Translations under genes and position numbers: made by a program
The notes under the pieces: generated by a model
The model's database searches: none
The model's input: only the letters and a program-made list of their open reading frames with translations
Told to the model about the DNA's origin: nothing
Shown here: piece after piece, positions 6,734 through 29,465 of the stretch
How positions within the stretch are numbered: the stretch's first letter is position 1
How the letters are laid out: every line of letters starts with the position of its first letter
Source of the DNA: Emcibacter sp.
GTDB taxonomy: Bacteria; Pseudomonadota; Alphaproteobacteria; Sphingomonadales; Emcibacteraceae
Length of the DNA: 33,713 bases
Assembly (NCBI GenBank): GCA_026982375.1
Contig: JALSHF010000009.1
Span: 1 to 33,713 of the forward strand
Direction: 5' to 3'

Positions 6734-6743
6734 ACCCCAAAGA

Positions 6744-6776
6744 CCAAATAAGAGCCAAATAAGAGCCAAATAAGAG
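6744..6776. repeat. Three exact 11-bp tandem repeats between dch and the ligase gene
   Basis: The unit CCAAATAAGAG occurs three times head to tail (6744-6754, 6755-6765, 6766-6776) without a mismatch. It lies in the only sizeable gap within the had operon and immediately before the region that should hold the ribosome site of the ligase gene. Exact identity suggests recent slippage. No coding or protein-binding role can be shown. Confidence 0.9.
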
Positions 6777-22526: not shown

Positions 22527-22601
22527 TAATTCCTTCTTTTTTCAACTTCCACAGTTTTTTACCAATCAAATACCCACTGCCAAGAAATGAGATATTTATT
22601 C

Positions 22602-22991
22602 TTTTTGGATTACGCAGAGGCGCCGCTAGGGCTGCGCTCTTGTTTTTGGATTACGCTCAAGCGCCGCTAAAGGCTGCGCTCCCCCTTGGTCGCTAAGTCG
22701 TCGCGTATGCTCCTTCTGTTTTTTTGGATTACGCTCAAGCGCCGCTAAAGGCTGCGCTCCCCCTTGGTCGCTAAGTCGCGAGGGCTCCTGTTTTTTTGGA
22801 TTACGCTCAGGCGCCGCTAAAGGCTGCGCTCCCGCTTGGTCGCTAAGTCGTCGCGTATGCTCCTTCTGTTTTTTTGGATTACGCTCAGGCGCCGCTAGGG
22901 GCTGCGCTCCCGCTTGGTCGCTAAGTCGCGAGGGCTCCTGTTTCTTTAGATTACGCCCAGGTGCCGCTGGGGGCTGCGTAAGCTCCTTCTG
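22602..22991. repeat. Alternating tandem repeats, units of about 72 and 76-78 bp
   Basis: Four full units are at 22643-22718, 22719-22790, 22791-22868 and 22869-22940, with partial units at both ends (22602-22642 and 22941-22991). Each opens with a T-run and GGATTACGC, contains GCGCCGCTA and GGCTGCGCTCC, and ends either in TCGCGTATGCTCCTTCTG (long form) or CGAGGGCTCCTG (short form). The forms alternate, so the higher-order unit is about 148-150 bp. The units abut with no unique sequence between them. The tract lies between korA and the oah promoter region. One strand stays open for 125 codons (see the separate entry). Confidence 0.92.
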
Positions 22992-23003
22992 TTTCTCCTT
23001 CAT
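22626..23003 (-). CDS. Doubtful 125-residue repetitive, charged protein encoded by the repeat tract
   Basis: The minus strand of the tandem repeats is open from an ATG at 23003. The product would be an internally repeated, hydrophilic, disordered protein with units built on RLSDQ(A/G)GAQPLAA and ERNPKKQ, joined alternately by EPS or KEHTR. The two main unit lengths, 72 and 78, are multiples of three, which keeps the frame. GGAAGAG lies a few bases before the ATG and could serve as ribosome site. No domain, signal peptide or membrane segment is visible. The frame may be a by-product of a GC-rich DNA repeat; I rate coding as possible but unproven. Confidence 0.3.
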   Translation of the reverse strand: MKEKQKELTQPPAAPGRNLKKQEPSRLSDQAGAQPLAAPERNPKKQKEHTRRLSDQAGAQPLAAPERNPKKQEPSRLSDQGGAQPLAALERNPKKQKEHTRRLSDQGGAQPLAALERNPKTRAQP

Positions 23004-23245
23004 TTTCTCTTCCCGGGGCGGGCCATCAAAAAACTATTGTTACTATTCTTGATTTCAGGCCTTGACCTTTAATTCGGTATTGTGGTACTTAATTACTACT
23101 TTAATGAGTCTTTGCCGCTTCGTCAACTCCTGAAAATAGATAATTTCAGTTATTCAACGAAAAAAGCGCAAAGAATAAATAGCGGTTATGAAATAGGAAA
23201 ACCCTGGCTCATAACGATTTAATAAATCCAAAGGAGCTTAAGCTA
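23004..23245 (+). promoter_or_regulatory. Upstream region of the oah-bcr operon with an inverted repeat
   Basis: This 242-bp stretch has no gene and should carry the promoter of oah-bcrCBAD-fdx. GTTATGA (23185-23191) and TCATAAC (23209-23215) are exact reverse complements with 17 bases between them and lie about 30 bases before the start codon. This is a possible regulator site; its sequence differs from the inverted repeat upstream of had. No FNR-type TTGAT-N4-ATCAA site was found. The ribosome site AAGGAG is nine bases before the oah ATG. Confidence 0.4.
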
Positions 23246-24349
23246 ATGCCATCTGCCGGTCTGGAAAATCATAATTTAGTAAGTGAAATTGACACCTCGG
23301 GCGTTATCCTTGAGAAACGCCCAGCCAAAACACCTGATGGGAATATTGTAGAAGGCCTTTATAATTACTGGATCACGCTGAATAATCCGGCCCAATATAA
23401 TTCCTATACAACAGACATGGTCAAAGCCCTTATTTTAGCCTTCCGGGAAGCAAGCAACGCCCGTGATGTGGTGGCCGTGGTTTTCACCGGAGCCGGCGAC
23501 AAAGCATTCTGCACGGGCGGAAACACCAAGGAATATGCGGAATATTACGCTGGAAACCCTCAGGAATACCGGCAATATATGCGTCTGTTCAATGATATGG
23601 TTTCCGCAATTTTAGGCTGTGACAAACCGGTTATTTGCCGGGTGAATGGCATGCGTATCGGCGGCGGCCAGGAAATCGGCATGGCGTGCGATTTTTCAAT
23701 CACCCATGACCTTGCCAAATTTGGGCAAGCGGGCCCCAAACATGGTTCGGCCCCCATTGGCGGCGCAACGGACTTTCTGCCTGTCATGGTCGGCTGCGAG
23801 CAGGCCATGGTATCCGGAACCCTGTGTGAGCCCTGGTCAGCCCATAAGGCCTACCGTATGGGTATCGTGTGCGATATTGTCCCTGCCCTGAAAATAGAGG
23901 GTGAGTTCATTGCCAACCCGCTTGTGATTACCGATCAATATCTGGATCAATATGGCAAAATCATTATGGGCGAATCCAAAAGCGGGGAGGCTTTGGCCCG
24001 CGGCAAAGAAACGCTGAAGGCCGGCGATATTGATCTGTCACTACTGGATCAAAAGATTGATGACATATGCTCTAAATTCATCACCACCTTCCCAGATTGC
24101 ATGACCAAAACATTGGAAGAATTGCGCAAGCCCAAAATTAATGTCTGGAATGCCAATAAAGAAAATTCACGGGCATGGCTTGCCCTGAACATGATGACAG
24201 AAGCCCGCGCGGGTTTCCGGGCCTTTAATGAACCTGTTGGCCGCGAGCGCGAGATCGATTTTATCGCTCTGAGGCAAGCATTGGCGGCGGGGCAGCCCTG
24301 GACACCCGAATTTACTGAAAGCCTGATGCCTGCCAACCGAAAGAAATAA
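23246..24349 (+). CDS. oah: 6-oxocyclohex-1-ene-1-carbonyl-CoA hydrolase
   Basis: Ring-opening hydrolase of the benzoyl-CoA pathway: it adds water to 6-oxocyclohex-1-ene-1-carbonyl-CoA and cleaves the ring to 3-hydroxypimelyl-CoA. It is a crotonase-fold protein but, at 367 residues, is longer than ordinary hydratases, as expected for Oah/BamA. Visible segments are the oxyanion region CTGGNTKEYAEYY, then RIGGGQEIGMACDFS with a conserved Glu, and AGPKHGSAPIGGATDFLP, typical of this group. It opens the operon with a clear AAGGAG ribosome site. It takes the product of Had, whose gene lies in the other operon. A short tandem duplication lies between it and bcrC. Confidence 0.94.
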   Translation: MPSAGLENHNLVSEIDTSGVILEKRPAKTPDGNIVEGLYNYWITLNNPAQYNSYTTDMVKALILAFREASNARDVVAVVFTGAGDKAFCTGGNTKEYAEYYAGNPQEYRQYMRLFNDMVSAILGCDKPVICRVNGMRIGGGQEIGMACDFSITHDLAKFGQAGPKHGSAPIGGATDFLPVMVGCEQAMVSGTLCEPWSAHKAYRMGIVCDIVPALKIEGEFIANPLVITDQYLDQYGKIIMGESKSGEALARGKETLKAGDIDLSLLDQKIDDICSKFITTFPDCMTKTLEELRKPKINVWNANKENSRAWLALNMMTEARAGFRAFNEPVGREREIDFIALRQALAAGQPWTPEFTESLMPANRKK

Positions 24350-24352
24350 GGG

Positions 24353-24382
24353 CGAAAAAAGTAACGACGAAAAAAGTAAGGA
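24353..24382. repeat. Near-exact 15-bp tandem duplication between oah and bcrC
   Basis: CGAAAAAAGTAACGA (24353-24367) is followed directly by CGAAAAAAGTAAGGA (24368-24382), with one mismatch. The mismatch in the second copy creates AAGGAG, which serves as the ribosome site of bcrC. The gap is otherwise empty. Confidence 0.85.
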
Positions 24383-24392
24383 GATTTGAGAC

Positions 24393-25556
24393 ATGGCTAC
24401 GAGAGAAGAAATCACCAACCGCTGTCAGGCTCTTTATGATGATCTGGATTTTACAGCGGCCCGCACGTGGAAAGAAGCGAAGCCGGGACGGCATGTCATT
24501 GGCTATTTGCCCATGTATGTCCCGCGCGAAATCATCCATGCGGCCGGCATGATGCCCCTTGGCATATTGGGGGGCGGCGATCAGCTGGAAGTCATTCAGG
24601 GGGATGCTTATTATCAAAGCTATATCTGCCGCATCCCCCGCTCTACCATCGAACTTCTGCTTACGAACCGGCTTGATTTTGTCGATGGCATGCTGTTCCC
24701 GAGTATTTGTGATGTGATCCGTAATCTATCGGGCATGTGGAAATTATTGCGCCCGGATGTTTATGCCCATTATTTCGATGTGCCTCAAAATTATATGAAA
24801 GATGTGGGCGGTGAATTTTACATTCATGAACTGAACGTCTTAAAAGAGGATTTGGAAAAAATCAGCGGCAATAAAGTGACCAATGACGCCTTAAAAAATT
24901 CCATTGAACTCTATAATGAAAATCGCAGGTTAACCCGCGAGCTTTATAAATTCAGAGCAGACAAGCCCTGGCTTGCCCCGTCCTCAGAAGTTTACCTGAT
25001 CAATCGGGCGGGTATGGTGATCCCTGTTGAAGATCATAATATCCTCATCAAAGACTATATTGAGGCCGCAAGACAGGAAGACCGGCCAAAGCGGGATAAC
25101 AGCCGTGTTGTTATTTCCGGCTCTTTCTGTGAACAGCCCCCTATTAACCTGATCAAATCCATTGAAATGTCAGGCTGCTATGTGGTGGATGATGACTATA
25201 TGCTGGTCAATCGCTGGTTTACCAAGCCCGTACCCACGGACGGCGACCCCATACAGGCGTTGTCTTATACCTTCCTCGAAGCATCGGTAAAAATGCCGTC
25301 CTGTTTTGAGCCAAACGAAGATATCAAAGGGCAGTTTCTGGTCGATCTTGTTCGGGAAAATAATGCAGAAGGCGTCATCTTTGCCGCCGCCAGCTTCTGC
25401 GATCCGGCGCTTTTGGAACGACCCATCCTGCAAGACGTCTTAAATCAGGTCGACATCCCCCATGTCAGCTTCAAATATGCTGAAAATACCGGACAGATGC
25501 AGCCAATTCGCGAACAGGCAGGAACATTTGCCGATTCGATCAAGCTATGGAGTTAA
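24393..25556 (+). CDS. bcrC: Benzoyl-CoA reductase subunit C
   Basis: One of the two catalytic subunits of the ATP-dependent class I benzoyl-CoA reductase, which transfers two electrons to the aromatic ring. The 387 residues match the family. Cys79 (YICRIPRS), Cys106 (PSICDVIR) and Cys336 (ASFCDPAL) are the likely ligands of its [4Fe-4S] cluster, in the superfamily pattern shared with 2-hydroxyacyl-CoA dehydratases. The order bcrC-bcrB-bcrA-bcrD is that of Thauera and of badDEFG in Rhodopseudomonas. A ribosome site AAGGAG is 11 bases before the ATG. Four bases separate it from bcrB. Confidence 0.95.
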   Translation: MATREEITNRCQALYDDLDFTAARTWKEAKPGRHVIGYLPMYVPREIIHAAGMMPLGILGGGDQLEVIQGDAYYQSYICRIPRSTIELLLTNRLDFVDGMLFPSICDVIRNLSGMWKLLRPDVYAHYFDVPQNYMKDVGGEFYIHELNVLKEDLEKISGNKVTNDALKNSIELYNENRRLTRELYKFRADKPWLAPSSEVYLINRAGMVIPVEDHNILIKDYIEAARQEDRPKRDNSRVVISGSFCEQPPINLIKSIEMSGCYVVDDDYMLVNRWFTKPVPTDGDPIQALSYTFLEASVKMPSCFEPNEDIKGQFLVDLVRENNAEGVIFAAASFCDPALLERPILQDVLNQVDIPHVSFKYAENTGQMQPIREQAGTFADSIKLWS

Positions 25557-29091: not shown

Positions 29092-29334
29092 ATGGCCTTA
29101 ATGATCGTGGAAGCTTGCACCGCATGTGATGCCTGCGAACCCGTATGCCCAAACGAAGCCATTACAGAAGGTGATCCAATGTATAAAATTGATCCCTTCA
29201 AATGCACAGAATGTGTCGGCGCAGATGACGAGCCGCAGTGCGTTCTTGTCTGTCCGGAGGAATGTATCATCCCCAACCCGGACTTCAAGGAAAGCGAGGA
29301 CGAGCTTCAGGCAAAATATGATGCCTTAAATTAA
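29092..29334 (+). CDS. 2[4Fe-4S] ferredoxin, electron donor to benzoyl-CoA reductase
   Basis: An 80-residue ferredoxin with CTACDACEPVCP and CTECVGADDEPQCVLVCP. The eight-residue loop inside the second motif and the C-terminal extension place it in the Allochromatium-like type known from benzoate-degrading clusters. It should be reduced by KorAB and oxidised by BcrCBAD, and could also serve the Hcr-like enzyme. A clear ribosome site AAAGGA precedes it. Its stop codon lies inside the first unit of a 12-bp tandem repeat. Confidence 0.94.
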   Translation: MALMIVEACTACDACEPVCPNEAITEGDPMYKIDPFKCTECVGADDEPQCVLVCPEECIIPNPDFKESEDELQAKYDALN

Positions 29335-29376
29335 TCCCTGAATTAATCCCTGAATTGATCTCCGAATTAATTCATG
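29329..29376. repeat. Four 12-bp tandem repeats at the end of the bcr operon
   Basis: Units AATTAATCCCTG (29329-29340 and 29341-29352, identical), AATTGATCTCCG (29353-29364) and AATTAATTCATG (29365-29376) lie head to tail. The first contains the ferredoxin stop codon. The fourth includes the palindrome GAATTAATTC with the preceding base. No T-run follows, so it is not an evident intrinsic terminator. Confidence 0.8.
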
Positions 29377-29465
29377 AACTAAATAGTATTTTCTTAAATC
29401 GTTACAATTTGTAAAGAATTTAAGTGAATACTAATATACATGTCTAAACTATAGGAGTATGTTCA

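Follow-up and report, generated by a model that had tools for sequence, protein, structure and literature searches.

A tandem array whose two unit forms alternate regularly and whose minus strand stays open in one frame raises the question of whether it encodes a repeat protein or is a piece of repetitive DNA that happens to be open. Such an array lies in the window, namely the whole 33,713-nucleotide stretch analysed here (Emcibacter sp., assembly GCA_026982375.1, contig JALSHF010000009.1), and a sequence-only reading of it had left two possibilities, either a dispersed DNA family or, beside the bcr promoter, a disordered repeat protein that varies in length. Based on comparisons of the genome that holds the window (G000, 2.63 Mb) with two congeners that carry the same family, the sister species G009 and G006, the genome of which is 85% complete, we propose that the tract is most probably not a protein gene and that a small non-autonomous mobile element, inserted long ago and since decayed, has here been expanded in tandem in its interior.

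The array at 22602-22990 consists of a 41-bp partial unit, four units in the order 78-72-78-72 bp and a truncated unit (Table 1), with spacings between repeat copies of 41, 78, 72, 78 and 72. Tandem Repeats Finder reported 22643-22968 with a period of 150 bp (94% matches, the best score) and with a period of 78 bp too. Between the long units 1 and 3 there are 2 mismatches, and between the short units 2 and 4 there are 4, in both cases with no gap, and a long unit aligned to a short one (unit 1 to unit 2) shows 2 mismatches and 6 gap columns. An alternating tract of two unit forms, as first read from the letters, is thus what the array is, and duplication of a pair describes it fairly, as the 150-bp pairs 22643-22792 and 22793-22942 are 96% identical. 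The tract had been drawn as far as 23003; the repeats are indeed there, and they end at about 22990, the ATG at 23003 belonging to the decayed right end of the element described below. Several other origins of the array were considered. A CRISPR was dropped because the units are contiguous and have no spacers, an assembly artefact is unlikely because an array stands at the same locus in three separately assembled genomes (G000, G006 and G009), a plasmid origin was rejected with no match in a plasmid collection, and for viral carriage the exact core and exact left-end patterns gave 0 matches in viral contigs.

Table 1. Positions in the window of the array, its units, the open frame and the flanking features
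Feature	Positions	Strand	Basis
Partial repeat unit, 41 bp	22602..22642	+	repeat spacing, Tandem Repeats Finder
Unit 1, long, 78 bp	22643..22720	+	repeat spacing, unit alignment
Unit 2, short, 72 bp	22721..22792	+	repeat spacing, unit alignment
Unit 3, long, 78 bp	22793..22870	+	repeat spacing, unit alignment
Unit 4, short, 72 bp	22871..22942	+	repeat spacing, unit alignment
Unit 5, truncated, 48 bp as cut	22943..22990	+	repeat spacing, unit alignment
Incidental 125-codon open frame, not a gene on present evidence	22626..23003	-	ORF; no Pfam match
Decayed left end of the host element	22565..22607	+	local alignment score 46; mean of 100 shuffles 17, none as high
Decayed right end, with the ATG and a purine-rich stretch	22995..23029	+	local alignment score 32; mean of 100 shuffles 18, none as high
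Conserved promoter/operator-like block between divergent kor and oah, outside the array	23062..23110	.	10-genome genus alignment

On the minus strand the array neighbours kor, the alpha and beta subunits of a 2-oxoacid:acceptor oxidoreductase, and on the plus strand it neighbours oah, a 6-oxocyclohex-1-ene-1-carbonyl-CoA hydratase, with bcrC and bcrB for benzoyl-CoA reductase subunits C and B (all by NCBIfam). The divergent kor/oah order occurs in 10 of the 10 genus genomes aligned. With gene starts derived by tblastn and G007 left out, the kor-oah gap measures about 719 bp in G000, about 744 bp in G006 and about 633 bp in G009, all of which hold the array, and 197-353 bp in seven other genus members, which are without it. 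The 49-base conserved block is almost invariant across the 10 aligned genomes and identical in loci from 8 genomes, and it may be a site for a regulator of anaerobic benzoate degradation. The earlier placement of the array next to the bcr promoter is right as to position, the promoter-like block itself lying outside the array. The array is situated between kor and this block, and if transcription of kor began within the block, its 5′ leader would include the array. Scanning for a promoter consensus gave a single match in the kor direction, at 23126-23098, which is weak and compares with 0.6 expected by chance; the chances that the kor transcript carries the array in its 5′ leader appear about even, and any effect would be modest at most.

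Some further observations concern the rest of the window. At 25462-25556 the bcrB frame as listed begins within bcrC and the family match starts from residue 45, so that the true start of bcrB is probably further downstream than listed. Other short tandem repeats are found at 6740-6776 (period 11), 24338-24379 (period 15) and 29329-29382 (period 12). Positions 1-416, where the contig starts, match one region of G006 contig C101, and the end of contig C204 matches an overlapping part of that region, so that the two contigs are probably adjacent in G000.

The open frame itself is real, being 125 amino acids long with an ATG, and it invites the reading of the tract as a small translated gene, or as an upstream ORF within the leader of kor, that would encode a disordered repeat protein varying in length. 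The frame runs open through four units; its G009 orthologue (L078) is open for 122 codons from the same ATG, at a locus that holds ambiguous bases; the unit spacings at the kor/oah locus are divisible by 3 in G000 (3/3) and in G009 (3/3); three further arrays have a TTG-started ORF across 79-83% of their length; and the weak promoter-like match would place the frame in the kor leader. However, the G006 orthologue (L096) keeps the ATG and closes six codons later, with none of its four spacings divisible by 3, and outside the window locus the spacings are multiples of 3 in just 7 of 39. Apart from the window there are 25 arrays of at least 140 bp, and in 23 of them all minus frames are interrupted by a stop; the other two are L078 and L065, a two-unit copy. 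For this count, 31 of the 39 copies not classed as young, and no young ones, were translated (L075, L086, the second L092 array, L094, L098, L100, L104 and L105 were omitted), and 26 were of at least 140 bp; these include the window, which has a single stop in its frame, 24 bases in from the edge of the array, and which was excluded from the 25. Ambiguous bases occur in L078, L081 and L083. The frame is therefore not kept across copies and orthologues in the way that marks a protein-coding repeat, and no Pfam match was found for the 125-codon frame up to E = 1.

The apparent gene start fares no better, as both the ATG and the purine-rich stretch that had been taken for a plausible ribosome site lie in the decayed right end of the element, for which most intact copies read ATTGAAGGAG. 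Moreover, the frame survives the gain or loss of a whole 72-bp unit, so that selection is not required for it to be open in two sister species, and multiples of 3 at one locus are inherited as whole units come and go. The open frame would then be a by-product, both unit lengths here being multiples of 3 and the decayed right end contributing an ATG. The genome-wide search for frame-breaking copies of the unit, named beforehand as the check on coding, did find such copies. Hence a repeat-protein gene is rejected on the frame tests and the absence of a Pfam match, and a translated tract appears very improbable.

The other possibility, a dispersed DNA family, is supported. The 150-bp pair has 22 matches in G000, in 16 places on 14 contigs with the window included, and the core pattern with up to 3 mismatches occurs at 30 places of this genome, its reversed control at 0. 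In a search of 40 genomes including G000, matches came from four, namely G000, G006 (41), G009 (26) and G031, a member of another family of the order with 16 matches that share a core of 25-32 bases; the 13 other genus genomes, several of them just 62-77% complete, gave no match to the family. Two of the 16 places in G000, L069 on C160 and L070 on C87, share nearly the same flanking sequence, which may reflect a duplication or a single locus that was assembled twice.

Altogether 51 copies were labelled, of which 12 were classed as young; among the remaining 39, some are single-unit (the G006 copy at C94:6563 is not among the 51). With a simple ORF caller, 46 of the 51 overlap no ORF of at least 80 aa, and the other 5 overlap short ORFs of 80-149 aa that are mostly repeat sequence. 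For the 33 non-young copies whose neighbours could be scored on both sides, the neighbouring genes are convergent in 12 cases, unidirectional in 17 and divergent in 4, three of the last being the kor/oah locus in three genomes; since many loci are orthologues of each other, these neighbour and ORF counts are not independent. The units are mostly 69-78 bp long and stand head to tail, all matched units of an array on one strand. Twelve orthologous sets were picked by eye, of which set G, cut by a contig end, was excluded, and unit number differs in 7 of the 11 usable sets, for example 4, 4 and 5 at the kor/oah locus and 1/2/5, 4/2 or 3/4 at others, with no difference in sets C, D, J and K (by the counting rule, L084 has one unit, two by eye, and a partial unit is counted in L078 and not in the window). 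The variable length that had been supposed is thus found between species.

What is dispersed is more than the unit. In G000, G006 and G009 there are 11 intact copies, each with a single unit between hairpin-bearing ends, nine of them 147-150 bp and two 165-166 bp long. Compared with the intact copy L088, seven of the other ten are 92-98% identical and three 80-87%, and because of these three, not all intact copies are recent. They begin with TCTCGCAGGGGA and end with GGGGATGTTTAT or close variants, the two ends not being inverted repeats of each other. The left-end pattern, allowing up to 3 mismatches, finds exactly the 11 intact copies in 16 genus genomes and nothing in 13 of these genomes. 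When a composite of two near-identical copies was folded as DNA, one end formed a hairpin and the other a branched hairpin with an 8-bp closing stem (z = -3.12 for either strand, with 1 of 200 shuffles folding as well). The ends can also be recognised in other copies at p ≤ 0.02 against shuffles, the right end in 28 and the left end in 14 of the 35 compared (taken from the 39 copies, with 100 mononucleotide shuffles each; L086, the second L092 array, L094 and L098 were omitted for contig ends), and the window passes for both. Judged by these alignments, the window array is part of the element and is flanked by decayed versions of its intact ends.

Insertion is documented by empty sites. The G000 copy on C212 is missing at the matching place in G009 and G006, the empty site reading CTCATTGAAG and the filled one CTCA[element]TTGAAG; the G006 copy on C101 has no counterpart in G009, where the empty site reads GATTCATTCAAAAA and the filled one GATTCA[element]TTCAAAAA, nor in G000, where the flank is slightly different. 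At neither of these sites is the target duplicated. The third site, L074, lacks the element in G009 and G006 and is not clean, as the flanks differ, so two of the three orthologous empty sites are clean, both without target-site duplication; for the L088 insertion no orthologous site was found. Read on the minus strand, TTNAA immediately precedes the element in 10 of the 11 intact copies, compared with 234 of 20,688 background positions (1.1%), and a T follows in 11 of 11. This target motif can pair partly with TTGAA just inside the closing stem, from which we infer that such pairing may choose the target. At the kor/oah locus, the insertion is present in G000, G006 and G009 and not in the seven other genus members. 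For three intact copies an orthologous place exists in relatives, and in every case the relatives lack the copy, which fits insertion first and expansion later.

Based on these findings, the history of the tract could be as follows. The intact form, mostly about 148 bp long with a hairpin end, one unit, a branched-hairpin end and no terminal inverted repeats, would insert next to TTNAA on the minus strand without target-site duplication, as palindrome-associated elements do that are moved by Y1 transposases of the single-strand IS200/IS605 type. Once inserted, the element would gain or lose interior units through slippage or unequal crossing-over, and at the kor/oah locus duplication of a 150-bp pair would have given the order 78-72-78-72. 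Mobilisation of the Y1 type is rather likely, and expansion by slippage or recombination is very probable. The mini-element reading is weakened by one unclean empty site in three and the lack of an orthologous site for L088, by a left end recognised in the minority of copies compared, by the divergence of three of the intact copies and by equal unit numbers in four orthologous sets, as well as by two points of the mobilisation taken up below, the transposase and the pairing with the target.

Among described systems, the element resembles most features of the PATEs of Haloquadratum walsbyi, which, in the parts of their description drawn on here, have no terminal inverted repeats, palindromes near both ends and no target duplication, are too short for a transposase, and show a conserved terminal oligonucleotide and lineage-specific insertions (PMC3119063). 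Likewise, the Emcibacter element has no terminal inverted repeats and palindromes near both ends, the hairpins being taken from one composite copy; it left no target-site duplication at two of three orthologous empty sites, the third (L074) being unclean; at 147-166 bp its intact copies are too short to encode a transposase; and it also has a conserved terminal oligonucleotide and lineage-specific insertions. This likeness is one of described features, and the differences are that the host here is a bacterium, that the interior unit expands in tandem, and that ends related to those of an IS200/IS605-type transposon were found neither at six Y1 loci nor with the left-end pattern, which finds the 11 short copies only. 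The element can therefore be called PATE-like and not a proven PATE, as no IS200/IS605-type relative with the same ends was found.

The six loci concerned come from searches for Y1_Tnp, which gave 3 matches in G000, 3 in G009, 0 in G006 (85% complete) and 0 in G031. None of the six in G000 and G009 shares a convincing end with the element, and the best match, 21 bases at 86% (E 0.027), falls in an A-rich interior stretch; with weak matches only, a transposase partner among these loci was rejected. Nor does the repeat flank a REP-associated tyrosine transposase gene at any of the six, as an RAYT-mobilised REP would, and the terminal inverted repeats together with target duplication that define a classical MITE were not found in the element. 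With IS200/IS605 members, as far as the sections of the two papers that treat their ends describe them, it shares subterminal hairpins and a short conserved target motif at one end (PMC6006769; PMC8266576). However, the element has no transposase gene, and its proposed target-pairing partner is 3′ of the closing stem, unlike the IS200/IS605 guide, which the same sections place 5′ of the hairpin foot (PMC8266576; PMC6006769).

Whether the unit could have a role of its own was considered from the wider distribution of its core. In a species-level genome collection the exact 24-base core occurs in 49 stretches, all labelled Alphaproteobacteria or taxa within, 36 of them from three genomes that appear to be G006, G009 and G031, and 13 from nine other genomes. 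Allowing up to 2 mismatches, it is found in 4 of 396 genomes of the order, with one match in all for the reversed control, and a sequence model of the core matched 9 of 386 genomes of the class, namely G000, G500 with 11 matches, G680 with 7, G707 with 5 and five genomes with one weak match each. Head-to-tail arrays occur in other lineages as well, with three cores spaced by 120 bp in Hyphomicrobiales bacterium OFTM97 (L128, 2390-2653) and a diverged core repeated every 88 bp in G707 (L211, locus positions about 1300-1500). By eye, the ORF directly downstream of the L211 array seems to resemble the nitrilase family. In G031, loci L110-L122 are dispersed repeats of about 100 bp that hold the core with variable hairpins on either side. 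In the core alignment, the rows of which were chosen for the exact 24-base core with one exception, so that the core is invariant by construction, the adjacent stems seem to show compensatory changes from one lineage to another. No description of the core was found in the open-licence literature, in the texts of which core pieces of 15 to 17 bases are absent.

This sharing of the core with other Alphaproteobacteria would suit a structured regulatory RNA or a protein-binding repeat acting in the control of kor/oah or at transcript 3′ ends, a role that has been suggested for other extragenic palindromes, with copy number tuning expression, and so would the place of the array in the kor/oah divergent region and the non-young copies between convergent (12/33) or divergent (4/33) genes. 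However, seven congeners have the same kor/oah block without the array, the core is patchy in both order and class (in the latter, five of the nine matched genomes by a single weak match), and the window pair folded as RNA does no better than shuffles (z = -0.13). A known RNA family was rejected, as Rfam gave no match in the window at gathering scores. A regulatory repeat of this kind is accordingly unlikely.

The interior core with possible hairpins, mostly intergenic and in Alphaproteobacteria, could also make the tract a tandem cluster of the CGTC-tagged extragenic palindromes (REPs) of that class, which the parts of the survey cited here report in all alphaproteobacterial orders, with grouped elements rare except for large clusters in Neisseriae and Wolbachia (PMC3733652). 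In common with these, the units here are short intergenic repeats of Alphaproteobacteria for which no dedicated transposase is known. According to the same parts, however, CGTC-tagged REPs have stems of 8-9 bp and form mainly head-to-head dimers, head-to-tail ones being negligible, and no dedicated transposase is named for them there as known (PMC3733652). Here, no head-to-head dimers are seen, as the units of each array are on one strand; they are mostly 69-78 bp long, run head to tail and are enclosed in an element with separate ends of its own, so that a CGTC-REP cluster is quite unlikely.

More tentatively, the core might be an undescribed, patchy family of structured alphaproteobacterial repeats, which here would ride in a PATE-like element that chooses its target by pairing of TTNAA with the internal TTGAA, and which would have undergone independent head-to-tail amplification in at least three lineages, mostly as 69-78 bp units in this genus, at 120 bp in Hyphomicrobiales bacterium OFTM97 and at 88 bp in G707. 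This is possible though doubtful; if true, it would be the core itself that moves or that drives the multiplication of its copies.

Porphyromonas gingivalis, a bacterium of a different phylum from the Emcibacter host, provides an earlier example of a minisatellite enclosed in a mobile mini-element. The element there, BrickBuilt, is set out in the portion of its description used here as a minisatellite inside a MITE, with a 23-nt unit and a constant leader and tail (PMC4596501). The two are alike in organisation, each being a tandem repeat enclosed by constant ends in multiple intergenic copies, and they differ in unit length, 23 nt there and mostly 69-78 bp here, and in that the tandem repeat is part of BrickBuilt as described, whereas the intact Emcibacter copies are single-unit. 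Therefore, the Emcibacter case is ordinary in its cause and nevertheless instructive, as it shows a way in which a bacterial minisatellite can originate, wherein a one-unit mini-element inserts and its interior expands into an array that mimics a repeat-protein gene. Such arrays can mislead gene callers. As the same loci can be compared in three species, nature offers here a small series in which insertion, decay and changes in unit number can be followed, and the core shared with other Alphaproteobacteria makes what mobilises such repeats there a testable question.
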